DNA of 64,000 nucleotides from Candidatus Omnitrophota bacterium. Lineage in GTDB: Bacteria > Ratteibacteria > UBA8468 > B48-G9 > JAFGKM01. The stretch covers positions 295,685 through 359,684 of the forward strand of contig JAMWDI010000001.1 in NCBI GenBank assembly GCA_023819375.1, given 5' to 3'. This document shows positions 50,090 to 64,000 of this stretch, in pieces. Position 1 is the first letter of the stretch. Each line of letters starts with the position of its first letter. A program made the position numbers and the translations under genes. Below the pieces are notes generated by a model. It made no database searches, had not been told where the DNA came from, and saw only the letters and a program-made list of their open reading frames with translations.

Positions 50090-51112
50090 CTATTTAAAAT
50101 TTTTAAGTTCTGGTTTTATAAAAACTTTCCAAATTTTTTTATTTTTATTCTTTATTTTCTTTAAAATTATCTCTGCTGCTTTCTTTCCAATATCTTCTCC
50201 TCTCTGTTCAATAAAAGGAATTAAACCTTTAACAACTAAATTAAAGTGAACTTCTGCAATCTCAGACAAATTTAAATCAACAGGATCAAATCCTGTTAAG
50301 AATATATCATCGGGGATTTTTATGCCATTTTCATAAAAAAACTTAAATCCATATTTAAAATAGAGTAAACTTTCTACAAATATTGCATCTGGTTTTACTT
50401 TTTTAAATATATCTTCAAGCCCTTCATACATATCTTCTTGTTTTTCAATTTTTTTATAAATCAATCTTTCATCTATCTTAAATCCATATTTTTTTAAACA
50501 CTCACAATATCCATCAAATCTTTCATTTAAAGCACTCAAATTTTTTTCACTTCCTATATATGCAATCTTTCTTTTCCCTTTTTTGATTAAATATTCAGTT
50601 GCCTTAAAACTACCCCATTTATTATCGCTTACAACAAAATCAATATTTTTATCCGATAAATAATTGTCCACAAAAACAACTGGTATTTTAGATTTTTCAA
50701 AAATTTTCACTAATTTTTCATAATTTTCAGATTTTTGTGGAGAAATTATTAAGCCCTCAATCTTTCTTTCCAAAAAAGTTTCTATATGTTGAATTTCTTT
50801 TTCCCCAAGATTGGAACTTGATATAAGAGCAAAATAATTGTTTTCAGCAAGTTTTTTTTCAATTCCTGATAATATATTTAAATTAAAACTTCTTGTTAAG
50901 TCACCAAGAATTATTCCAATAGTTTGTGTTTTGCCTGTTTTTAATTGTAGGCCTAAAGGATTGGGCTTATAATTACTTTCTTTTATTTTTTTCTTTATTT
51001 TTTGAACAAGTTTTTCATTTATTCTTTTTTCTTTCCACTTATTATTATAAACATATGATACTGTCGCTACACTTACTCCAAGTTCTTGAGCAATATCTTT
51101 TAATCTTTTCAT
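50090..51112 (-). CDS. LacI-family transcriptional regulator
   Basis: 340 residues. Residues 1-50 are the LacI helix-turn-helix (LKDIAQELGVSVATVSYVYN) with hinge helix, NPLGLQLKTGKTQTIGIIL starts the periplasmic-binding-like effector domain. Two operator-like sites flank its own consensus promoter, so autoregulation is likely. It heads the operon with the dehydrogenase and isomerase and probably controls them in response to their sugar. The effector is unknown. The start has no Shine-Dalgarno site; the leader would be about 18 nt. Confidence 0.9.
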   Translation of the reverse strand: MKRLKDIAQELGVSVATVSYVYNNKWKEKRINEKLVQKIKKKIKESNYKPNPLGLQLKTGKTQTIGIILGDLTRSFNLNILSGIEKKLAENNYFALISSSNLGEKEIQHIETFLERKIEGLIISPQKSENYEKLVKIFEKSKIPVVFVDNYLSDKNIDFVVSDNKWGSFKATEYLIKKGKRKIAYIGSEKNLSALNERFDGYCECLKKYGFKIDERLIYKKIEKQEDMYEGLEDIFKKVKPDAIFVESLLYFKYGFKFFYENGIKIPDDIFLTGFDPVDLNLSEIAEVHFNLVVKGLIPFIEQRGEDIGKKAAEIILKKIKNKNKKIWKVFIKPELKNFK

Positions 51113-51120
51113 TTTATTTG

Positions 51121-51134
51121 CTCAATCGTTTAAA
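51121..51134 (-). promoter_or_regulatory. Candidate LacI operator, promoter-proximal
   Basis: Imperfect palindrome with a central CG at 51127-51128 (CAATCGTTTAA), just downstream of the -10 box. It shares ATCGTTTAA with the site at 51168-51181. Central CG symmetry is typical of LacI-family operators. Confidence 0.5.
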
Positions 51135-51137
51135 TAA

Positions 51138-51165
51138 ATTATACCTATAAAATTTTTTTTGTCAA
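51138..51165 (-). promoter_or_regulatory. Consensus promoter of the LacI-led operon
   Basis: TTGACA (51160-51165) and TATAAT (51138-51143) on the minus strand are separated by 16 nt. Both hexamers are perfect consensus. A LacI-like site lies on each side. Confidence 0.8.
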
Positions 51166-51167
51166 GA

Positions 51168-51181
51168 GATAATCGTTTAAG
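51168..51181 (-). promoter_or_regulatory. Candidate LacI operator, upstream of the -35
   Basis: Second copy of the ATCGTTTAA core with CG at 51174-51175, 47 bp from the first centre. The two sites bracket the promoter and could support a repression loop. Confidence 0.45.
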
Positions 51182-51237
51182 CAAATTAAAATCTTGAAAA
51201 ATTGATGTGAACTTATAATTTTATTTCTTGGGAAAAT

Positions 51238-51514
51238 AATTTTTCTTTATTTTTTAGATTTTGACTATTTTGCCATCATAAGCAACTTCTATTTTTTCTT
51301 TTCTAAAAATCTCTTGAAGTTCTGAATATAACAGCCCTCCATTATGGGAAAAATGTGTTACTATGAATTTAAAATTTTCTTTTAGCAAATTTTCCTCCAT
51401 AAGTTTTTTCTTAACTTTAAAAACACCTTCTATTCCGAGATGTCCTTTCTCATAAGGTAGTTTACCATTTGTGCAGTCCATTATAATAATATCAAACTTG
51501 AAATTTTTTAAATA
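51238..51514. repeat. 277-bp direct repeat, left copy
   Basis: This stretch is repeated in the same orientation at 60024-60300 (offset 8786). I compared the two copies by eye: the only difference is A at 51353 against G at 60139, which is synonymous in the MBL-fold frame. The copy ends abruptly at 51514. Confidence 0.95.
51254..51514 (-). pseudogene. 3' fragment of the MBL-fold hydrolase gene
   Basis: The last 87 or so codons of the gene at 60040-60870, kept with an identical stop and identical protein sequence (MDCTNGKLPYEKGHLGIEGV onward). It is cut at 51514, where the remnant of a different gene begins. It has no start signals and lies downstream of nothing that could express it as a protein. 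Confidence 0.9.
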
Positions 51515-52146
51515 AGGAATAAAGAAAATATTCTATCACTTATGAAAGGGCTAAACCTCGCAGGAATATCAAATGCTTATAGCAGGGATATCCTCTCCTG
51601 CCTCAGGCGGGGAACATCTTATATCTCACTTTCTTGATATGTAGACTCATCAAAACCAAAAAGAACCATTTGGCTATCATGAACTTCAGGTAGGCACACG
51701 GGTTTATATATCTGCCGTTATCTATGAATACTTAGGAAATCTCTCTTCTTATGATGTAAAAAAGATGGCAGAGCATAGTAAAATTGAGTAATGCAGCTAA
51801 ACTCAATCAATTAAAAATAACTTTTCCTTTAAGTGCTGATATTATTGAAGAGAAGTTTAAGAAAAAGATGATGATAGACAGAAAAATAAGGGAGCACTTC
51901 TAAAAAGGTGGGATGAAATAAAAAGAGATGTCTTTCCAATAATATATAAACCAGATGAAGTAAAAATTTTTAGCCAGTGCAGAGTGTCCTTTCAGATTAT
52001 CAGATTAAAAGATATAGGGGGTGGATAGGAAACTTGTGATAGAAACTATTCTACTCTCACGGTTCATAAGAGAACGCCTTGTTATTCTTGATATTGCAGA
52101 CAATCGCGGTATTCTTGAAGATATAGCAGAAGGATATGCTGGATAA
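51515..52146 (+). pseudogene. Glycerol-1-phosphate dehydrogenase (AraM/EgsA-like) remnant
   Basis: Reading across frames gives NKENILSLMKGLNLAGISNA, then SSPASGGEHLISHFLDM, FGYHELQVGTRVYISAVIYE, and near the end LIETILLSRFIRER-like VIETILLSRFIRERLVILDI and LEDIAEGYAG. The zinc histidines of iron/zinc-type G1P dehydrogenases would be those in GGEHLISH and FGYHELQVG. There are in-frame stops (after FLDM at about 51641 and after HSKIE) and at least two frameshifts. The N-terminal half is missing because the sequence starts at the repeat junction. It is dead but recognisable. Confidence 0.75.
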
Positions 52147-52149
52147 AGA

Positions 52150-54343
52150 AACCTAAAACTCCAGTTCCAGCAGACCAGACGAAGATAATCTTCCAGAAAG
52201 AATCCAGTTGTTTTTCCCTTCAGTATCTGTAGTTCCCACTGCTCATTATTAAATCTCACCCTTATCCGACTTCTGGCTCAGTACAAGTTCTAGATCTCCT
52301 TTATGTGCAATTCAATATATAACCTTGATTACTCTGATGGACAGAGTTAACCTTTATATTTGCATCAAGAATCTGTGGTGCTCCATCAATAAGATTGATA
52401 CTGAAAAGTTTGCAATCGTGAGTAAGGATATTAATATCTGTAAGTTCTCCAAGAAGTGATGTTTCTCCTGACCATCTCTTTGTAGCAAGATAGTGTGCTT
52501 TCGGGAGAAAGAGTTTCTCTGCATTTAGATTATATACAGATGGAACCTCTCCAAGGTTAAATATAACCACTGTGCAAAAAGGTAATGACAGGCATTCTTT
52601 AAGCAAAGAAAAATGAAGCATACATATAAACCATACAGGAGGACCATATATCTGAGTTTCATCCCTGTAGTTATAGTCAGTAAAAAACACCTCATCTCTA
52701 TTATTGGGGCAGCAGAGTGCTTTTTTAAGCCACTTCATACGGGGATTTTTCAGAATAAAGATGAAGCCAGACAGTAACCTTCACCATAGTTCTGAAAATG
52801 AGACAGAATGTAATAAGGGTTTTTACTTCATTATCACTTAACTTCGGAAATGTTCCCACAGAATCCTGTTAGGAATAAAAGGCCTCTTAGATGTAATGAG
52901 ATATATGTAGTTGCCCACCGAAAGTTTGTGAGAAAATTTTCCCAGTTGCCATCTCCCATATCAATTCCATACCTGTAGTTATTGAAATATTCTGCAAGAA
53001 ACGGATTAGCCATACCAATATCACAACATGCCTCAAGATATCCATCAGAAGGTAATCTCTTTCTTATCTCTCTGAGAAACTAATCCCTCCACTGATATCC
53101 TGATTGTTTCTTTTCTTTCCGAAGTAAGAGACAATCTTCAAATGCATAACTCCAGAAGTCAAGTTTTATTCCTTCCAATCCACTTTCTTTGATAAAAAAA
53201 TCAATTGCTTCTTCAATATATTTTCTAACTTCAAGTAAACTGATATCCAAGGAGAATTTATCCTTAAAGCGACAAGAATAATCAAAACCATTCAGGATGT
53301 TCTTTGAAAAGGCGGGCTTTGTGCGGAATAAGAACACCTATCCATATAGCAGGTCTCAATCCACGTTGTTTGATACCATCTGTAAATACCTTAAACTCCT
53401 CAGGAAACATTTTCTTATGAATCCTTTTTCTCCTTCATAAGCAACACCAAACCATGCAGATCTATGACCGCATATCCGTCATCAATTTGAATCCACTCAA
53501 CCGTAGGGAAATTTTCCTTTATAAACTCAGCCACAGCAAAAAGCCGTTGCTGGTCTATATCTCTGTATACACTATATCATTCCAGAAACCCCAGATAACT
53601 GTATTTCGGTTGGTAGACTTTGCTCCATAAAGAGGAGGAAGATATCTCCTTAATACCTTTATATAACCAGCAAAATGCCTTTTCAATATTGTCCGCATCC
53701 TCTGTTATATACCAAGATACCACATATCTTCAAGATATCTATCTGGTTGAAACTCAAAATATTCAATTGACTTAAAGGAAGAGAAAATATCCCATTGCAA
53801 ACCTTTTTCTATATGTTTCACAATATAATTATAGAAAAATGCATGTTGTGAGAGTGAACCATGAACAAGATCATTTTTACTCTGGAGATTGGAAAGAAGT
53901 ACAGCAGGAAATGGTTGATAGGAAAAAAATACCTATACGTTTGTCTGTTCCTGTTGGTGAATACTGTCCATTCTTATAACTCTCTTTCCATAAATACGTG
54001 GATTTTCAGGATGATAAAAATAATCATTCCTCATCCGGACCTTCAAGTTTTATATCTTTCAGTTACAGTCCAATTTCTTTAAGAAAAATTACACTGTTAA
54101 AATTGTTATACAGTCGGCGTGAAATAATAATCTCTTTTTGTCTTCTTCTTTTAAATAAATATCTTCTTTTATCCCGTTTTTATATTCAAGTAAAAGGTGG
54201 GCTGTGCTTGTTTTTTCACTGCTGCCAGTTTCCTTTAAATGGCTCAAGCCGATCTGATGTTACTATTATATAAGGAATGGCAACAAGTTTTCCTGATCTA
54301 TTCTCTTTCCTATCCACTTACTTAAAGAGCTTAAAAAATCCAT
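52150..54343 (-). pseudogene. Melibiase/GH36-like glycoside hydrolase remnant
   Basis: Starts at an ATG at 54343 (MDFLSSLSKWIGKRIDQENL) and then breaks into pieces in different frames. Recognisable parts are YIKVLRRYLPPLYGAKSTNR, the catalytic-nucleophile region GIKLDFWSYAFEDCLLL, SDGYLEACCDIGMANPFLAE, and the stretch MKWLKKALCCPNNRDEVFF with the C-terminal beta domain. The wording resembles alpha-galactosidase-type (GH36/melibiase) enzymes. Multiple stops and frameshifts are seen, for example near 53340, 53080 and 52740. The LacI gene on the other strand points away from it. Confidence 0.65.
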
Positions 54344-54426
54344 TTTTTCTTAAACATATCACATTTTTTTATTTCCCTGCAAGGATGTTTAATAAGTAAT
54401 ACTTTAAAACAAAGAATTCTATCTTT

Positions 54427-54497
54427 AAAAATAAAATATCCTTGACAAAATTTAAAAATAGTAATATAATGTAAACGTTTACAATGGATATAAAAAA
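54427..54497. repeat. Tandem promoter-operator unit, copy A
   Basis: A 71-bp match to 54494-54564, period 67, sharing an AAAA overlap. It contains TTGACA (54442-54447), 17 nt, TATAAT (54465-54470), the perfect palindrome TGTAAACGTTTACA (54470-54483) and an ATG at 54484. From that ATG a duplicated start reads Met-Asp-Ile-Lys-Lys-stop. Confidence 0.95.
54470..54483 (+). promoter_or_regulatory. LacI-type operator 1
   Basis: Perfect 14-bp palindrome TGTAAACGTTTACA with central CG, overlapping the last base of the -10 box in copy A. It covers the expected transcription start. Confidence 0.8.
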
Positions 54498-54564
54498 ATA
54501 AAATATCCTTGACAAAATTTAAAAATAGTAATATAATGTAAACGTTTACAATGGATATAAAAAA
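54494..54564. repeat. Tandem promoter-operator unit, copy B
   Basis: Same as copy A: TTGACA (54509-54514), TATAAT (54532-54537), operator TGTAAACGTTTACA (54537-54550). Here the ATG at 54551 begins the real regulator. The gap from -10 to ATG (13 nt) puts the start within the operator and the mRNA leader at about 6-7 nt, with no Shine-Dalgarno site. Confidence 0.95.
54537..54550 (+). promoter_or_regulatory. LacI-type operator 2
   Basis: Second perfect TGTAAACGTTTACA, 67 bp after the first and directly before the regulator's ATG. It overlaps the -10 of copy B by one base. Binding would block both start and elongation from copy A. Confidence 0.8.
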
Positions 54565-55582
54565 GATAGCAAAAGAATGTGGAGTCTCAATAGCAACCGT
54601 TTCAAGGGTATTGAATAACAAGCCCAATGTTGCTGAAGAAACACGTAAAAAAATTATAGAAGTAATAAAAAGTTATGATTTTGTCCCTAACAGAATAGCA
54701 AAAAGTTTTGTTCAAAAGCATACCTTCACCATTGGAATTACTCCCCCTGATATACACCCTCATTCATCACCGGATGTATTTTTCTTCCCTGTTTTAATAG
54801 ATGGGATGGAAGAAATTCTATGGAAAGAGAAATATAATCTTTTGCTTCTCTATGCCAAGTCTCCTGAAATACAAAAGCGTTCATATTTTGTCAATTTATA
54901 TAGAAGTAAACAGGTAGAAGGATTAATCCTGTTGAATATAAAAAAGGATAATCAGGCATTTATCTGTTTAGAAGAATCCGGTTATCCCTGTGTCACTATA
55001 GGTAGAGTAAGTGAGAATCAAAAGAGCAGTTATGTAGATACAAACAATATAAAGAGAACATATATGGCAGTTGAGCATTTTATTACAGTGCATAACTTCA
55101 GAAAAGTAGCATATATAGGTATAAAGCCAATTTATTCTGTATATGCGGATGCTTTAGAAGGATATAAACTGTGTATGAAAAGATATGGCATACCAGTAGA
55201 AAAAGATATAGTTTATCTGGCAAAAGATGAAGATGAAGAAGAAGGATACAGGGGTATAAAAAAGATATTATCTGAATCTCCGGAATGTCTTGTAATAATG
55301 GGAAACCTTATCTTCAATGGAATTTTAAAATATTTCGGAGAAAAAGGAATAAAGATTCCAGAAGATATGCCCATTATCCACTGTTCAGAACTGCCGATGG
55401 TTATTCCATACGAGATAAAAATTACCCAGGTCAAACAACCTGTCTTTGAGTTAGGTAGATATGCAATAGAGATACTTTTAAGACAAATAAAGGGAAACAA
55501 AAAAAGGGAACAGGTTATTTTAAATCCAGAATTTTGTCCGGGTAATTCCTGTGGATGTTCTATTATAGAGGGGAAAAGATGA
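54551..55582 (+). CDS. LacI-family regulator of the island core
   Basis: 343 residues with the LacI helix-turn-helix IKKIAKECGVSIATVSRVLN and hinge, then the binding-protein-like domain (FTIGITPPDIHPH, GLILLNIKKDN, HNFRKVAYIGI, PECLVIMGNLIFNG). The two TGTAAACGTTTACA palindromes before the gene are the likely autoregulatory sites. It ends with a TGA that overlaps the ATG of a 37-codon ORF. The pseudopilin and glycoside hydrolase downstream may be its targets by read-through. Effector unknown. Confidence 0.92.
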   Translation: MDIKKIAKECGVSIATVSRVLNNKPNVAEETRKKIIEVIKSYDFVPNRIAKSFVQKHTFTIGITPPDIHPHSSPDVFFFPVLIDGMEEILWKEKYNLLLLYAKSPEIQKRSYFVNLYRSKQVEGLILLNIKKDNQAFICLEESGYPCVTIGRVSENQKSSYVDTNNIKRTYMAVEHFITVHNFRKVAYIGIKPIYSVYADALEGYKLCMKRYGIPVEKDIVYLAKDEDEEEGYRGIKKILSESPECLVIMGNLIFNGILKYFGEKGIKIPEDMPIIHCSELPMVIPYEIKITQVKQPVFELGRYAIEILLRQIKGNKKREQVILNPEFCPGNSCGCSIIEGKR

Positions 55583-55692
55583 AAAAGATGGATAGAAGAG
55601 TTATTTTTGTTAGCCATCCGGTTATACCGGATGATTATATACATTCCTTTTTTCCCATTCACTGGGAAGACCAGTGGATATTATATAGATAA
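55579..55692 (+). CDS. Short ORF coupled to the LacI gene
   Basis: A 37-codon frame (Met-Lys-Lys-Met-Asp-Arg-Arg then [18 protein letters not shown]) starts inside the LacI stop (ATGA). It contains several aromatic residues and an HxxxxDD-like sequence but no known motif. It may be the head of a truncated gene rather than a functional peptide. Low confidence. Confidence 0.3.
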
Positions 55693-55712
55693 AAAACATA
55701 TGGAGGTGTAAG

Positions 55713-56438
55713 ATGAGAAAGATAGTAAAAGCAATAAAGACAGGGGGATTTACTTTGATAGAGCTTCTGGTAGTTGTGGCAATCATTGCTATTTTAGCAG
55801 CAATGTTATTACCTGCACTTTCCAGAGCAAGGGAAAAGGCAAGAATGGCAGTATGTATGAATAATCTTAAACAGATTCATCTCGGCGCTATGATGTATGC
55901 ACAGGACTATGAGGAGTGGCTACCTACAATAGAAAATGGTGGTTATCAACGTTTTTTAAACTCTTTTCTCTTCCATTCAGAAAGTGACAATAGGTGGTAT
56001 GGTTATGCAAAGTTATATACGTTAAAATATGTTCCGAAAGGAACTACATTTGTATGCCCTTCTGACCTATGGGAGAAAGCGTATGGTAATGAAATCTCTA
56101 ACCGTATAGAGTCAAACTGGGTAAACTGTGGATGGAAGACACTTAGAAGCACATATATATATGCTCCATATAGTAATGCTACTTTAGTATCTAGTACTAC
56201 TACTTCTCCATATTATAAACTCAGTAAGATTCCACAAACAAATGTTCTGGCATTGGCACGGATATATTTCTATACTCCAAGCCGATGTGAAATCAACCAT
56301 AATGGTATGGTTAATGTCCTTTTTGTCGGTGGAGATGTAAGACCTATTAAAGAGAAATCCATAATAAATTTGAAACCTACTTGGCCTGATGACTGGAACT
56401 GGAAAGGTTTTCTCCAGAATCTTTATAAGTATCAATAA
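55713..56438 (+). CDS. H-X9-DG-type pseudopilin
   Basis: 241 residues. The prepilin site is in [20 protein letters not shown] with Glu at +5, then [20 protein letters not shown]. The C-terminus has the [18 protein letters not shown] motif (His, nine residues, GD in place of DG) of DUF1559-like major pseudopilins common in PVC bacteria. GGAGG precedes the ATG at normal spacing. It is placed between a regulator and a secreted glycoside hydrolase, a pairing also seen in broken form at 46.5-48.2 kb. Confidence 0.85.
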
Positions 56439-56461
56439 TTAGTATCTAAAAAAGGGGGGCT

Positions 56462-58399
56462 ATGGACAGAATAATAAAAAAGGGGATATTATGTGGCTTG
56501 AGTTTATTGTTATTGGTCAGTATAAACTCATTTGCCAATTTTAATCTTCCTTCCGGGACTATAATTTACGAAGCGGAGGACTTTGTAGAACATACTGTAG
56601 GCAAAATAAAAGAAGACACAAGTTGTAGTGGAGGAAAGTATATCTCCTGGCCCAAAGAAAACAATTACCTGCACATTTTGAGATTTCCAGCTCCTGAAAA
56701 AAAGGATATAAAATATGCAATATGGATAAGACACAAGGGATGCAGTATATGCCTGAAGGACCATGAAGCAAAAGAAATTACTTGGATATGGTATAGAGAC
56801 CCTGTCTGGAAATGGAATAAGTTTGGAGATTTCAGTTTTTCTCAACTCGGAGAAAGTTTTGTGATTATGACATCCCCTCATTTTGGAGAAGGGGCATTAG
56901 AAGGAGGGATTGACTGTGTAATAGTTTCTCCTTCTTTAGCCTTTACTCCTGAAGGCATATATACAAAACAATCAACGAGTGAGCAGGAAAAAGAAGAAGA
57001 GGTGTTAAAGAAAAACAATATCATAAAACTTGAAATTGACTTTTCTGCTAAAAAAGGAAAGATAAGTCCGTATCTTGCAAGTGCTAATATTAATGGTATT
57101 ACTCAACATCTTATAGATAATAAGGATTGGGATAAAATGATGCAAGAGTTTTTCAAAGACGGATTATTAAGAGCACAAGTTGTAATGTTTAATAAACCTG
57201 ATGGAGATGGAAACTGGTGGAATTTCAAAGAGATAGACAGGTTTATAAAAACAGCGAGAGAAAGATGGGGGGTAAAAAAGATTTTGATTGGGCCATCGTT
57301 GAAAATCCCTGGATGGGATTATAAAAGTAAAATCACAGAAAACCAAATATTAAAATCAAAAGAGGCACTTCAGCAACTTGTCAGAAGATATGGCAGCCCT
57401 GGAAATGTATCTGTAGAATACTGGGAAGCAGCAAATGAATGGTGGGGTGGCTACTGGGAGAAAAATCCAAAGGAGTTTGTGCAGGTATATACATATTTAT
57501 GCAAGGCGATAAAAGAGATAAATCCTGATTTAAAAGTAGGTGGTCCTGTGGATGCCTGGCCTACACTTGGAAGGATTGAAGCACTTTTAAAAAGTTTCCC
57601 TGAACTGGATTTTATTAGCTGGCATTTTTATCCCACAGGATCTGCCGGTCCTAATGAGGGTGTATTTACAGACCTTGCCAGATTACAGGAAAAGATGGAA
57701 ACCGGAACTTCATACAGAGACAATGTACTATCCAGAGCATCACAACTTGCTTCCAATGTGATTGCCTGTCAGAAGATAAGTGAAAAAATACTCGGTAAAA
57801 AAATACCTGTAATTGTCTCGGAATATCATCTTAACTACCATGCATGGGACCCTGTTGACCCTATGATGTGTTCTCCTTTTGCAGGAGTATGGAATGCACT
57901 TGCACTTACCTATCTATGTCAATCTGACTGTTTTTCAGGTATGATACATGATGTTAAGACAGCTGTCTATGGACTGTTTGGTCCGGCAGATGGGTTAAGT
58001 GTACATTTCAGAGTAATCCCTGCTCCTTCAAAAGAGGATGAAAACAAAATATATATAAGACCTATAGGTCATATCCATCATTTCTTTATAAAACATATCG
58101 CAGGGAAAGAAAGGGTATCTGTCTCAAAGAAAGGAGCAAGTTCTAATTTTGAAGTTATAGCAGCAACAGATGGCAATGAGAGGTCAATTGTAATGGTAAA
58201 TTATTCATCTGCTCCAAAAGAAGTAAGAATCAAAATGTCAGATTATCTGCCAAAATTTACATATGAATTTAATTTCCCTGTTAAGTATCTCCACTGTACC
58301 TCTGACAACATATCAAAAGGAGAAGGACTATTTTTTAATACTGATGGTGAAGGAGTTATTATGATGCAACCTTATTCTGTTATGTGTTTATATTTTTAA
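56462..58399 (+). CDS. Secreted clan GH-A-like glycoside hydrolase with N-terminal carbohydrate-binding-like domain
   Basis: 645 residues. A signal peptide spans residues 1-25 (GLSLLLLVSINSFANF). Residues 30-165 form a beta domain (GTIIYEAEDFVEHTVG, WPKENNYLHILRFP) like CBM6/35. The TIM barrel follows: acid/base Glu in VEYWEAANEWWGG, DLKVGGPVDAWP, SWHFYPTGSAGP and the nucleophile candidate Glu in IPVIVSEYHLNYH. A C-terminal beta domain (ERSIVMVNYSSAPKEVRI) ends it. The layout resembles GH39/GH51-like enzymes; the exact family and substrate are not determined. AAAGGGGGG precedes the ATG. Intact within an otherwise decaying island. Confidence 0.75.
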   Translation: MDRIIKKGILCGLSLLLLVSINSFANFNLPSGTIIYEAEDFVEHTVGKIKEDTSCSGGKYISWPKENNYLHILRFPAPEKKDIKYAIWIRHKGCSICLKDHEAKEITWIWYRDPVWKWNKFGDFSFSQLGESFVIMTSPHFGEGALEGGIDCVIVSPSLAFTPEGIYTKQSTSEQEKEEEVLKKNNIIKLEIDFSAKKGKISPYLASANINGITQHLIDNKDWDKMMQEFFKDGLLRAQVVMFNKPDGDGNWWNFKEIDRFIKTARERWGVKKILIGPSLKIPGWDYKSKITENQILKSKEALQQLVRRYGSPGNVSVEYWEAANEWWGGYWEKNPKEFVQVYTYLCKAIKEINPDLKVGGPVDAWPTLGRIEALLKSFPELDFISWHFYPTGSAGPNEGVFTDLARLQEKMETGTSYRDNVLSRASQLASNVIACQKISEKILGKKIPVIVSEYHLNYHAWDPVDPMMCSPFAGVWNALALTYLCQSDCFSGMIHDVKTAVYGLFGPADGLSVHFRVIPAPSKEDENKIYIRPIGHIHHFFIKHIAGKERVSVSKKGASSNFEVIAATDGNERSIVMVNYSSAPKEVRIKMSDYLPKFTYEFNFPVKYLHCTSDNISKGEGLFFNTDGEGVIMMQPYSVMCLYF

Positions 58400-58427
58400 C
58401 AGGGAAAATGATACCTTTTCTTTTTGA

Positions 58428-58449
58428 TAAACAAATAGATTTTTGTTTA
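58428..58449 (+). other. AT-rich inverted repeat after the glycoside hydrolase
   Basis: TAAACAAA and TTTGTTTA are 8-bp arms around a 6-nt loop, 28 nt after the stop. There is no following T run and the stem is weak, so a terminator role is uncertain; TAAACA also resembles a LacI half-site. Confidence 0.25.
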
Positions 58450-58475
58450 CAGGATATAAAGTGATAAAATAAGCG

Positions 58476-59015
58476 ATGAATAGGGTTTTTCAGAAAAAAG
58501 GTACAATAATATGGTTATGGATACAGAGACTATTTACAGGACCGGTTGCTGGTTTTATATGTGGTCTTTTCGGTATGGGTGGTGGCTCTTTGATGGTCCC
58601 TGCCATTGTTTATGTCTTTAACCTTCCGATGAAATAGGCAATAGGAACAAGTTTTTATTTGTAATTATCTTTTCTGACATATCCGCACTTATCAATTATA
58701 TAAAAACATAACAAGATCAGCACAAAAATTTCGTTTTTTATTGTCCCTGCAGGTATTTCAGGCGCACAGGCAAGAGTATTTCTTACAAGCAGCTTTCAGA
58801 TGTTCTATTGCAATATATATTTGTGATAGTTATCGCAGGACTTGGCATTAGAATGTTTTTTTAGAAAGAGAACAGCGATGATACCTGTAAAGAAAATAAC
58901 TTCAATAAAATAAAAACGATTATCATAGGATTTCTCGCTGGTTTCGTATCAGGGTTGTGCGGAGTGGATGGTGCTGTGCTTATTATCTCTCTTCTTTACC
59001 TTTCTCAAATTTATC
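58476..59015 (+). pseudogene. TauE/SafE-type permease remnant
   Basis: From ATG 58476 the frame reads WIQRLFTGPVAGFICGLFGM then GGGSLMVPAIVYVFNLPMK to a TAG at 58636. Later pieces in other frames give FIVPAGISGAQARVFLTSSF and the second half GFLAGFVSGLCGVDGAVLII. The doubled GF-GxGGG/G-L motif is characteristic of sulfite-exporter-type (TSUP) permeases. Several stops and frameshifts destroy it, and a transposase remnant begins at about 59015. Confidence 0.7.
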
Positions 59016-59643
59016 ACAACTTATCAATATCCTTTTTAAATTATCTTTAAATTTCCTGTAATCTTTTTTCCATATTCTTTCTCGCATTCCTTATCAAATG
59101 AATATGACATAACTGATACTCTGCTTTTGGAAATAAACTCCCTACAAAACCAGTCCTCCTTTAATTGCCTCGCCTTAAAATCTTCTACTTTCTCAATTAC
59201 CCTTTCTTTTATCCCCTCTATCTCTGTATCTGTATAAGAATAATTTAATCTCTTTAATGCCCGGCTTATTTGATTTGAAACTTATCCACACTTATTAATA
59301 AAAATAAAAATTCGTCAAAGTCATCTGAAGACCTTTTATATTTTTCTGGAAGTAAACTTGGACTAAAATTGCCATTTCTTGTCCTTGGAACTTCTAATTC
59401 TAAAAGTCTAACTTTGTAAGTAAATTCCTAAAATAATAACTATTCCCTTTATCCCTCTTCTATTTTCTTTAAAAAATCCTCTCTTTCTCTCTCCATTAAA
59501 TAATTTATTAACTCCTCACAAAAATACTTTAATCCTATCTTGTCTTTCTGGCTTATCTTTGGGAAATGTCTTATTTATCACTTTCTCTATTGCTTCTTTC
59601 TTTATCTACTCAAACCTTTCTTCTGTCACTTCTCTTTTCCCAT
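59016..59643 (-). pseudogene. IS256-family (mutator-type) transposase remnant
   Basis: The minus strand from an ATG at 59643 (after a GGAGG site) gives, across frames, KREVTEERFE, IKVFCEELINYLME, VRLLELEVPRTRNGNFSPSL, KRSSDDFDEFL, LNYSYTDTEIEGIKERV and the diagnostic YQLCHIHLIRNARKNMEK. These are N-terminal and central parts of the mutator-type transposase in order, but with stops, frameshifts and a missing middle; the C-terminal third is gone. No inverted repeats were identified. Confidence 0.72.
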
Positions 59644-59696
59644 TTTTTCCTCCTTAATTATAAATCTTACTCTTTTATACACAATATTTTTAATAC

Positions 59697-59910
59697 TTAC
59701 CACTACATTATTGGATAAGAGTAAAAACACCAAAAGATAATGCAGAAGTAGAAAGATTTATAAGAACGATAGAGGAAGAATTTTTAGAATTATGGAATTA
59801 TACAGATGATGTTTAGTTGTTTAATAAAAATTTGGTAGAATACCTGATAGAATATAATTTTAACAGGCACATCAATCACTTGGATACGATACACTAATAA
59901 ATTTTTTAAT
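59697..59910 (+). pseudogene. Integrase-core (rve) transposase 3' remnant
   Basis: The plus strand reads HYWIRVKTPKDNAEVERFIR, TIEEEFLELWNYTDD, a TAG in place of an expected codon, then LFNKNLVEYLIEYNFNR and QSLGYDTLINFL across a frameshift. The pattern PKDNAxVERF...LxYNxxRxHQSLGxxTPxxFL is the C-terminal part of DDE integrase-core transposases of the IS481/IS3 group. Only the last third is left. Confidence 0.75.
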
Positions 59911-60023
59911 GAAAAATTTGAAGGAAAAGTGTTATCCATGTACCTGAATTATACAGAATATTAGTTTCTTTCATCATAGTTTTTTGATAGAGACATAACT
60001 ATTATTGGTTAATATAATAAAGG

Positions 60024-60300
60024 AATTTTTCTTTATTTTTTAGATTTTGACTATTTTGCCATCATAAGCAACTTCTATTTTTTCTTTTCTAAAAATCTCT
60101 TGAAGTTCTGAATATAACAGCCCTCCATTATGGGAAAAGTGTGTTACTATGAATTTAAAATTTTCTTTTAGCAAATTTTCCTCCATAAGTTTTTTCTTAA
60201 CTTTAAAAACACCTTCTATTCCGAGATGTCCTTTCTCATAAGGTAGTTTACCATTTGTGCAGTCCATTATAATAATATCAAACTTGAAATTTTTTAAATA
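60024..60300. repeat. 277-bp direct repeat, right copy
   Basis: Matches 51238-51514 with one mismatch (G at 60139). In this copy the repeat is the 3' third of an intact gene, so it is probably the original location. Confidence 0.95.
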
Positions 60301-60870
60301 TTGCCAAGTCTCTTCTGGATACCAACCAGTATCACATCCAAATAAAATAAACTTATTTTTATAATTAAAAATAAAATTGAAACATTCCTCATCTTCAATT
60401 TCAGTTTTATGATCTGCCAGTATTGGAAATACTACCATTTCGCCTGCTTTAAATTCATTAAAAACTTTAACTTGGTGAAGTTTTATTAAAGTATTATAGT
60501 TGGTTTTTTTTAAAATTAAATCGCTTATTATCTCACATATAGTTTTACTTCCATAAATATTTAAAACTCTTCCTTCTTTCATATGAGCAAATGGCTTAGA
60601 TCTAAAAATAAGTTCTGTCGGTGAAAAATGGTCCCTATGAGAATGAGTAATAAAAAGATGCTCAACTTCTGCAAGATTTATTCCATATTTTAAAACATGA
60701 AGATATGTATCTGGTGGAAAATCAACTTTATATTTTTTATCTATTAATATTGAACTTCTTGTCCTTATATTTTTACCTTTTAATTTTCTTGCTTTTTTAC
60801 AATATTCACATTCACAAAAAATCCCTGGCCAACCTTCCGCTGCACATGTTCCTAAAAAAAGAATTTCCAT
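60040..60870 (-). CDS. Metallo-beta-lactamase-fold hydrolase, PhnP-like
   Basis: 276 residues. EILFLGTCAAEGWPG opens the fold, CECEYCKKA is a PhnP-type zinc-cysteine pair, LFITHSHRDHFSP is the HxHxDH metal motif and FGCDTGWYPEE, IIMDCTNGK and VTHFSHNGG carry the remaining ligands. PhnP hydrolyses cyclic ribose phosphodiesters; no phosphonate genes are here, so the substrate is open. The C-terminal part is the repeated sequence described for 51238 and 60024. It lies 4 nt after the secreted hydrolase-like gene. Confidence 0.85.
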   Translation of the reverse strand: MEILFLGTCAAEGWPGIFCECEYCKKARKLKGKNIRTRSSILIDKKYKVDFPPDTYLHVLKYGINLAEVEHLFITHSHRDHFSPTELIFRSKPFAHMKEGRVLNIYGSKTICEIISDLILKKTNYNTLIKLHQVKVFNEFKAGEMVVFPILADHKTEIEDEECFNFIFNYKNKFILFGCDTGWYPEETWQYLKNFKFDIIIMDCTNGKLPYEKGHLGIEGVFKVKKKLMEENLLKENFKFIVTHFSHNGGLLYSELQEIFRKEKIEVAYDGKIVKI

Positions 60871-62542: not shown

Positions 62543-64000
62543 TTACTCAATTATACATATCTCATTCCAATCATTTAATTTTACGTCTATTTCCCAGATT
62601 TTTTCTTTTTTCTCAACTCTAAAATTATGCTCTTTTTCTCTGCCTTTTAAATCAAATAAATATACCTTTGGCTCTTTATTAAATTTGAAAACTTTTGAAA
62701 CACAACTTATTATCCTTTCTTTCCCTATTATATATCCTTCATTTATTTCTTCTATTGTTATTGGAAACATATGATTTATCGGCCCATATTCTCCTGCTCC
62801 TTCTCCTTCTTTTGGAATAACTGAAGCATAATAATAGTAAAGTAGCCCATTCCTTAAAGCAGTTATCACTGATTTCATTATTACTTCTGCAAATCTTTTT
62901 TTTCCTTCCTCTCCTAATCTTGTTGGTCTTATTCCAAGTATAATCGGTGTTGATAGATGTCCTTTCGCACAATAAATCAAAGTTGGTGGTTTTTTATCTA
63001 TAAAAGTTAAAGGATTTACAGGATCGTTTTCAAATTCTGCAAACCTGAATATATTTGGAAACACTTGTTCTTCTTTAATCCCTGGAAAACTATTTATTAC
63101 TGCTATTTTTCCTTTTTTTATTATATACTCAAGTATCTCTTTTCTCGCTTCTTTCCCTACTAACCCACAATCAGTGTACTTCCTTTTTATCTTCCCTGTC
63201 TTCTCATCTATATCAACTGTATACCCATCCCATTTCTCATAAGTATGTCTATCTGGTCTTCCTATGCTCCCCCAAGTTAATGTAAACTGATCTATATATA
63301 CACCATCCAGTCCTACTTCATCTGTAAGAAAATCTATCTGTTTTAAAAAATGTTTATATCTATAATTCCCTTTTTCAAGATATACAAGTAAATTTAAAAA
63401 ATTGGGATTTTCTGAATAATATGTGTCAACTATCACTCTCCCATCCTCTGTCTGTAAAACTGAATCAACCCATTCACCAATCCCTTCTTTTAACACCTCA
63501 CTTTCTTTTTTATTGAGAATATAACCATATGTTCCTTTCCTTTGGGAAGAACCACCTGGTAAAATTTCTCCATTTTTAATATCTCTTTTATCTATTGCAA
63601 TTAAATTTGTTTCTATTTTTCCAAGTATTTTCGCAGATGGATCTTTCTTCCTTATTTCTTCTATAATTGGCTTCATTACCTCTTTATATTCCTCTCTTGT
63701 ATAAATCTTCCCTGTTTTTGGATTTATAGAATAATAATCAAGCCATGGACCAGGAACATATATTTTTATTTTTCTTCCAGGTATTATTTCACCAGAAAAA
63801 GCAAATGGCCCTTCTATTTTTGTATTAACCTTCCAGTCATTTCTTACTTTGTTTATAAATGTAAAATAATTTTTCTCTTTTGAGGGATATATAGAAAATT
63901 CAAATTTATAACTTTTATTTTTATCAAGCCCAAAATGTTTTATTGTATAATTCAATGTATTTGCCTTTTTGGTTATTTCCCCTTGAACTCTTAAAATGTC
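62543..64000 (-). CDS. Large putative glycoside hydrolase-like protein, 5' end outside window
   Basis: The frame is open to the right edge (486 codons visible), so the true start lies outside. The visible part has beta-strand-rich sequence to about residue 80, then barrel-like segments with acidic residues: LNLLVYLEKGNYRY, VGLDGVYIDQFTLTWGSIGR, IAVINSFPGIKEE and PTLIYCAKGHLSTPIILGIR. The YIDQF and similar segments resemble clan GH-D or GH101-like barrels, but I cannot name the family. It shares strand and near-contiguous spacing with the next hydrolase, suggesting one polysaccharide-degrading unit. Confidence 0.6.
   Translation of the reverse strand, partial: DILRVQGEITKKANTLNYTIKHFGLDKNKSYKFEFSIYPSKEKNYFTFINKVRNDWKVNTKIEGPFAFSGEIIPGRKIKIYVPGPWLDYYSINPKTGKIYTREEYKEVMKPIIEEIRKKDPSAKILGKIETNLIAIDKRDIKNGEILPGGSSQRKGTYGYILNKKESEVLKEGIGEWVDSVLQTEDGRVIVDTYYSENPNFLNLLVYLEKGNYRYKHFLKQIDFLTDEVGLDGVYIDQFTLTWGSIGRPDRHTYEKWDGYTVDIDEKTGKIKRKYTDCGLVGKEARKEILEYIIKKGKIAVINSFPGIKEEQVFPNIFRFAEFENDPVNPLTFIDKKPPTLIYCAKGHLSTPIILGIRPTRLGEEGKKRFAEVIMKSVITALRNGLLYYYYASVIPKEGEGAGEYGPINHMFPITIEEINEGYIIGKERIISCVSKVFKFNKEPKVYLFDLKGREKEHNFRVEKKEKIWEIDVKLNDWNEICIIE

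Follow-up and report, generated by a model that had tools for sequence, protein, structure and literature searches.

A short direct repeat around a decaying chromosomal gene block, possibly the scar of an insertion-duplication by one-sided homologous recombination

Homology-facilitated illegitimate recombination has been described in Escherichia coli, as has a route in which linear DNA first circularizes and then enters by a single crossover (PMC3240628). Chromosomal DNA that brings along no recombinase is thereby integrated, either through one homologous and one illegitimate joint or through a single crossover of the circularized fragment, which leaves a direct repeat. In Campbell-type insertion-duplication, the product has the geometry A-R-X-R-B, in which R is the homologous segment. 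Recombination during DNA exchange also creates duplications in Streptococcus pneumoniae, namely transformation-induced merodiploids of ~100-900 kb, formed between pre-existing IS repeats (PMC3784515). The locus described here, an 8.5-kb island of mostly broken genes bracketed by a 277-bp direct repeat within a window of 64,000 nucleotides (the whole stretch of DNA that was analyzed), shares the A-R-X-R-B geometry and, in our preferred reading, would combine one homologous with one illegitimate joint. It differs from the E. coli events in that it is reconstructed from the product alone and in that this product duplicates 277 bp. Unlike a Campbell-type insertion, it involves no plasmid or phage circle; its interior is decayed chromosomal DNA of a sister-genus type, with IS stubs. 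In contrast to the pneumococcal merodiploids, the duplication here spans no more than 277 bp, and there is no sign of a repeat that predates it. The proposed mechanism is an already known one, and the repeat is best not taken as the mark of a new kind of element.

The two repeat copies, at 51238-51514 and 60024-60300, are in direct orientation and identical at 276 of 277 positions, as an earlier note on this DNA had claimed; the lone mismatch is silent, as it had also claimed, since in the MBL reading frame A51353/G60139 gives two His codons, CAT versus CAC. The longest exact stretch that the copies share is 161 bp. The right copy, on the minus strand, is the 3' end of an intact gene (60040-60870, minus strand) for an MBL-fold hydrolase (Lactamase_B_2, PhnP-like; Pfam PF12706, 5.8e-12; NCBIfam PhnP-like match below the cut-off). 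The left copy, also on the minus strand, is a truncated MBL 3' end, i.e., 261 bp including the stop codon plus a further 16 bp. The repeat is thus a part of the MBL gene, of which a full-length copy exists on the right side only. The left copy ends at 51514, exactly where, as the same note had it, a 5'-truncated G1P dehydrogenase remnant starts on the plus strand. In the 1.73-Mb genome, the repeat occurs just these two times. Near-identical repeats are rare in the ~1.54 Mb (89% of the genome) that was examined: besides the 277-bp pair, one other pair of ~200-300 bp reaches 99% identity, and the remainder are identical EF-Tu-like genes, a few IS, pilin or contig-end repeats. Given this rarity, a chance origin of the repeat is excluded. 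The two EF-Tu-like copies (C8:224441-225664 and C8:239392-240615) are 1224 bp long, 100% identical and 15 kb apart.

To the left of the island, a LacI-family regulator (50090-51112, minus strand) heads a LacI-dehydrogenase-TIM barrel operon that is conserved in the family. In genomes G008 and G010, the latter belonging to the same family but to a different genus, this operon has different upstream neighbors. The region upstream of the regulator (51113-51237, minus strand) contains a promoter-like TTGACA...TATAAT stretch, read directly from the sequence, and meets the left repeat copy at 51237/51238. The intergenic gap between LacI and MBL at this copy is 141 bp. In distant UBP13 relatives, a regulator is likewise found downstream of MBL.

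The island is less AT-rich than its surroundings, with a G+C content of 33.9% versus 28.1% for the window outside it, and no other stretch of the 368-kb contig reaches a value as high. Its lower AT content had been pointed out earlier, together with remnants of five genes, all of which can be named. Adjoining the left repeat is the frameshifted, 5'-truncated G1P dehydrogenase (51515-52150, plus strand; 74% identity to G010:C11, 6 frame-breaking indels), an intact homologue of which lies elsewhere in the genome, near C2:190-192 kb. Then comes a frameshifted melibiase-like glycosidase (52155-54406, minus strand; 75% to G010:C11, 13 frame-breaking indels). Both were identified through their G010 homologues, the glycosidase counterpart containing Melibiase PF02065; Pfam searches of the read-through remnants gave nothing because of the frameshifts. 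Near the right end are a TauE/SafE remnant (58458-58998, plus strand; PF01925, 9.6e-12; 77% to G010:C11), an IS256-family (Mutator) transposase remnant (58990-59702, minus strand; PF00872, 4.7e-12) with relatives at C2:9.9-10.3 kb and C3:95 kb, and the 3' remnant of an IS481-like element with its integrase core (59703-59955, plus strand; 92% to the end of contig C11; rve_3 hit of 6.2e-4, short of the curated cut-off).

The glycosidase and TauE remnants enclose an intact core, which the earlier note had counted as four genes. Three of these are clearly intact and the fourth is not firm: between the first two there is an ORF of ~37 codons at most. The first is a second LacI-family regulator (54551-55582, plus strand), assigned by Pfam, whose 3' part is 74% identical to G010:C24 with no frameshift. 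A 67-bp perfect tandem duplication (54427-54560, plus strand) covers its promoter, a TGTAAACGTTTACA palindrome and its start codon. The second gene (55713-56438, plus strand) encodes a prepilin-type N-methylation/DUF1559 protein with a homologue in G010:C24. At the DNA level, the N-terminal part of this type of gene is matched at more than 30 places across the contigs, i.e., it belongs to an expanded family. The third encodes a GH39-like secreted glycosidase (56462-58399, plus strand; PF01229, 5.4e-12), free of frameshifts and 73% identical in amino acids to its homologue in G010:C24. The interior yielded no integrase, relaxase or replication gene, and the genome holds no further copy of the interior beyond paralogues and IS copies.

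Most of this interior has a counterpart in G010. Positions 51539-54406 and 58458-58998 are colinear with a single G010 contig, C11, at 74% and 77% identity, respectively. On that contig, MFS is followed by G1P dehydrogenase, the melibiase-like glycosidase and TauE, so that the three broken genes, at 74-79% DNA identity, keep the same order; the glycosidase frame of G010 itself has one apparent frameshift. In G014, a member of the same genus as G010, the glycosidase and TauE lie close together, two other genes standing between them. The intact core (LacI, prepilin-type, GH39-like) matches a separate G010 contig, C24, and its position between the glycosidase and TauE remnants is unlike the arrangement in G010. 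Of four pieces, three place the block nearer to G010 than G014 is to either. The GC3 of the core is 0.26-0.29, versus 0.14-0.18 in the flanking genes, and that of the G010 GH39 gene is 0.30. The core thus resembles G010 and not its own genome in composition, and the block therefore looks imported. Among five genomes of the same genus, some of them only 77-90% complete, the GH39 core was not found, nor was MBL beyond a 29% match in one. Import from a G010-like donor fits the block best, and its interior is an ordinary chromosomal gene block of a sister-genus kind, not a mobile element.

Set against G010, the broken genes have accumulated 22 frame-breaking indels over about 2.85 kb, and the scorable core genes, namely GH39 and the 3' part of LacI, carry none by the same comparison. 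The repeat copies differ by one substitution and no indel. Codon-position patterns, with the intact GH39 gene as the reference for constraint, suggest a neutral divergence of ~1-3% since gene breakage, an estimate that some other constraint references would raise. Were the repeat as old as the decay, this divergence and the rate of indels together would lead one to expect at least 5.7 changes versus the one seen (P about 0.02 or less), a calculation that rests on an assumed codon-position constraint and ignores gene conversion. We conclude, in agreement with the earlier note, that the repeat copy is probably younger than the decay inside the island, barring gene conversion that keeps the copies alike.

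Our preferred reading, to which we assign a probability of roughly 0.55, is that the repeat is an insertion-duplication scar, with homologous recombination in MBL on one side and an illegitimate MBL-G1P dehydrogenase join on the other. From the product we infer the donor, the haplotypes and the order of events as follows. A chromosomal block from a lineage near G010 would have entered, settled just downstream of MBL and decayed. Later, DNA carrying the G1P dehydrogenase remnant, the rest of the island with its IS stubs and the MBL 3' end would have recombined with a chromosome in which LacI stood directly beside MBL. On the MBL side the two would have been joined by homologous recombination; on the other, an internal MBL position, 51514, would have been joined illegitimately to G1P dehydrogenase at 51515. 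This may have come about directly, by homology-facilitated illegitimate recombination, or the fragment may have circularized end-to-end and then entered by a single crossover. Either route would yield the order LacI - MBL 3' end - island - intact MBL, and the 277 bp would be the overlap from the illegitimate joint to the end of haplotype homology, 16 bp past the MBL stop.

This scheme requires a single illegitimate joint, and 51514/51515, where MBL meets the middle of G1P dehydrogenase in non-homologous DNA, is the sole clearly novel one. The joint lies in A+T-rich sequence that weakly resembles G1P dehydrogenase orthologues at this point (P 0.016, 0.034 and 0.12), a suggestive but weak sign of junction microhomology. 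If LacI/MBL is the native junction, as the plausible gap and the UBP13 arrangement suggest, the structure would follow from recombination with DNA carrying the island beside MBL. No genome showed the empty site, LacI beside MBL, or an island with a single MBL copy next to it, and in the five same-genus genomes this MBL gene was not found beyond the 29% match. The host genome, 94% complete, encodes ComEC and DprA; Ku was not found in it. The earlier note had proposed a Campbell-type recombination of a circular element carrying the MBL 3' end. Recombination through the MBL 3' end does explain the geometry; a circular mobile element does not accord with an other-genus chromosomal block that has no integrase, relaxase or replication gene. 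A circularized chromosomal fragment may have been involved.

In the first alternative to an insertion-duplication, the island is native beside MBL, and a deletion between LacI and the island, in which the 5' half of G1P dehydrogenase was lost, was mended with templated filler, 277 bp copied into the break from the nearby MBL 3' end. Such a repair would account for the truncation of G1P dehydrogenase exactly at the repeat edge, and it gains from a second patch of similar size (239 bp), which likewise has a truncated gene on one side and a regulator promoter on the other. The source of this patch (63488-63726, minus strand) lies in an intact gene of ~880 aa and is copied at C2:15463-15701 (238/239), in a truncated paralogue adjoining a LacI/GntR-like regulator. 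However, near-identity at C2 (~97-99%) runs past a 157-bp deletion to ~15870 and then falls to the paralogue level of ~75%, and the other end abuts unrelated DNA beside the regulator promoter. One edge thus lies in homologous DNA, which filler does not need; a step from ~75% to ~97-99% at one end and non-homologous DNA at the other is the one-sided signature expected of an insertion-duplication, and it supports the occurrence of events of that kind in this genome. The C2 locus could alternatively reflect gene conversion followed by deletion. Nor need random filler at the island end 16 bp past the MBL stop, in the MBL-to-LacI orientation and with a normal 141-bp gap. We regard templated repair as unlikely. 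That the lineage recurrently copies 200-400-bp gene fragments upstream of sugar-regulator promoters, next to truncated genes, is a far more speculative proposal, which we think very improbable; if it were true, ectopic patch-insertion would reshape regulator promoters, those of LacI and of the LacI/GntR-like regulator at C2:15.4 kb.

A quite unlikely explanation is an error of assembly topology, i.e., a chromosome with LacI-MBL only, the repeat and island forming a separate circle, or a unit present in several copies. An overlap of exactly 127 bp links 24 of the 26 contig ends to another end; the contig order can be deduced from these pairs, and such overlaps would be the signature of a SPAdes short-read assembly at k=127. 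Because the 161-bp exact stretch exceeds k, the loop was resolved, and the assembled order set, by paired reads. The true arrangement could accordingly be a circle, an array with several units or a mixed population. Every single junction must, however, have reads of 127 bp or longer across it, which leaves topology or copy number in doubt but not the joins: the single junctions are secure at the k-mer level, and direct k-mer support is needed for all four. Moreover, no contig break occurs at the repeat, MBL is intact, and a circle of broken chromosomal genes with no replication gene would not persist.

Alternatively, the island and the MBL 3' end may have been duplicated in tandem within one chromosome, the first island copy then being deleted as far as the left repeat. 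Tandem duplications with short repeats, or none, at their ends are frequent in bacteria, and transformation-stimulated ones are documented in pneumococcus (PMC3784515). This route needs two events, one of them a deletion whose endpoint happens to fall immediately past the MBL stop and immediately short of the LacI promoter; we judge it improbable.

A site-specific integrative element that used the MBL 3' end as its attachment site would leave the gene restored at one end and a 3' fragment at the other, as do islands that integrate into gene ends; with its recombination and replication genes absent, with an interior that in G010 and G014 is an ordinary chromosomal neighborhood and not a discrete unit, and with 277 bp being very long for an attachment core, this explanation is scarcely credible. 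A composite transposon was rejected, as the IS256 and IS481-like stubs, related to other copies in the genome, lie at the island's right end only and no identical IS flank both ends.

An insertion-duplication of this kind would mean that imported chromosomal DNA can lodge in a genome without a mobile element, here in an uncultured lineage, and that a short direct repeat may be the record of a one-sided homologous event. A repeat-bracketed island is not necessarily a mobile element. In this block most of the imported genes would have decayed, and a small sugar-use cassette would have been kept intact.
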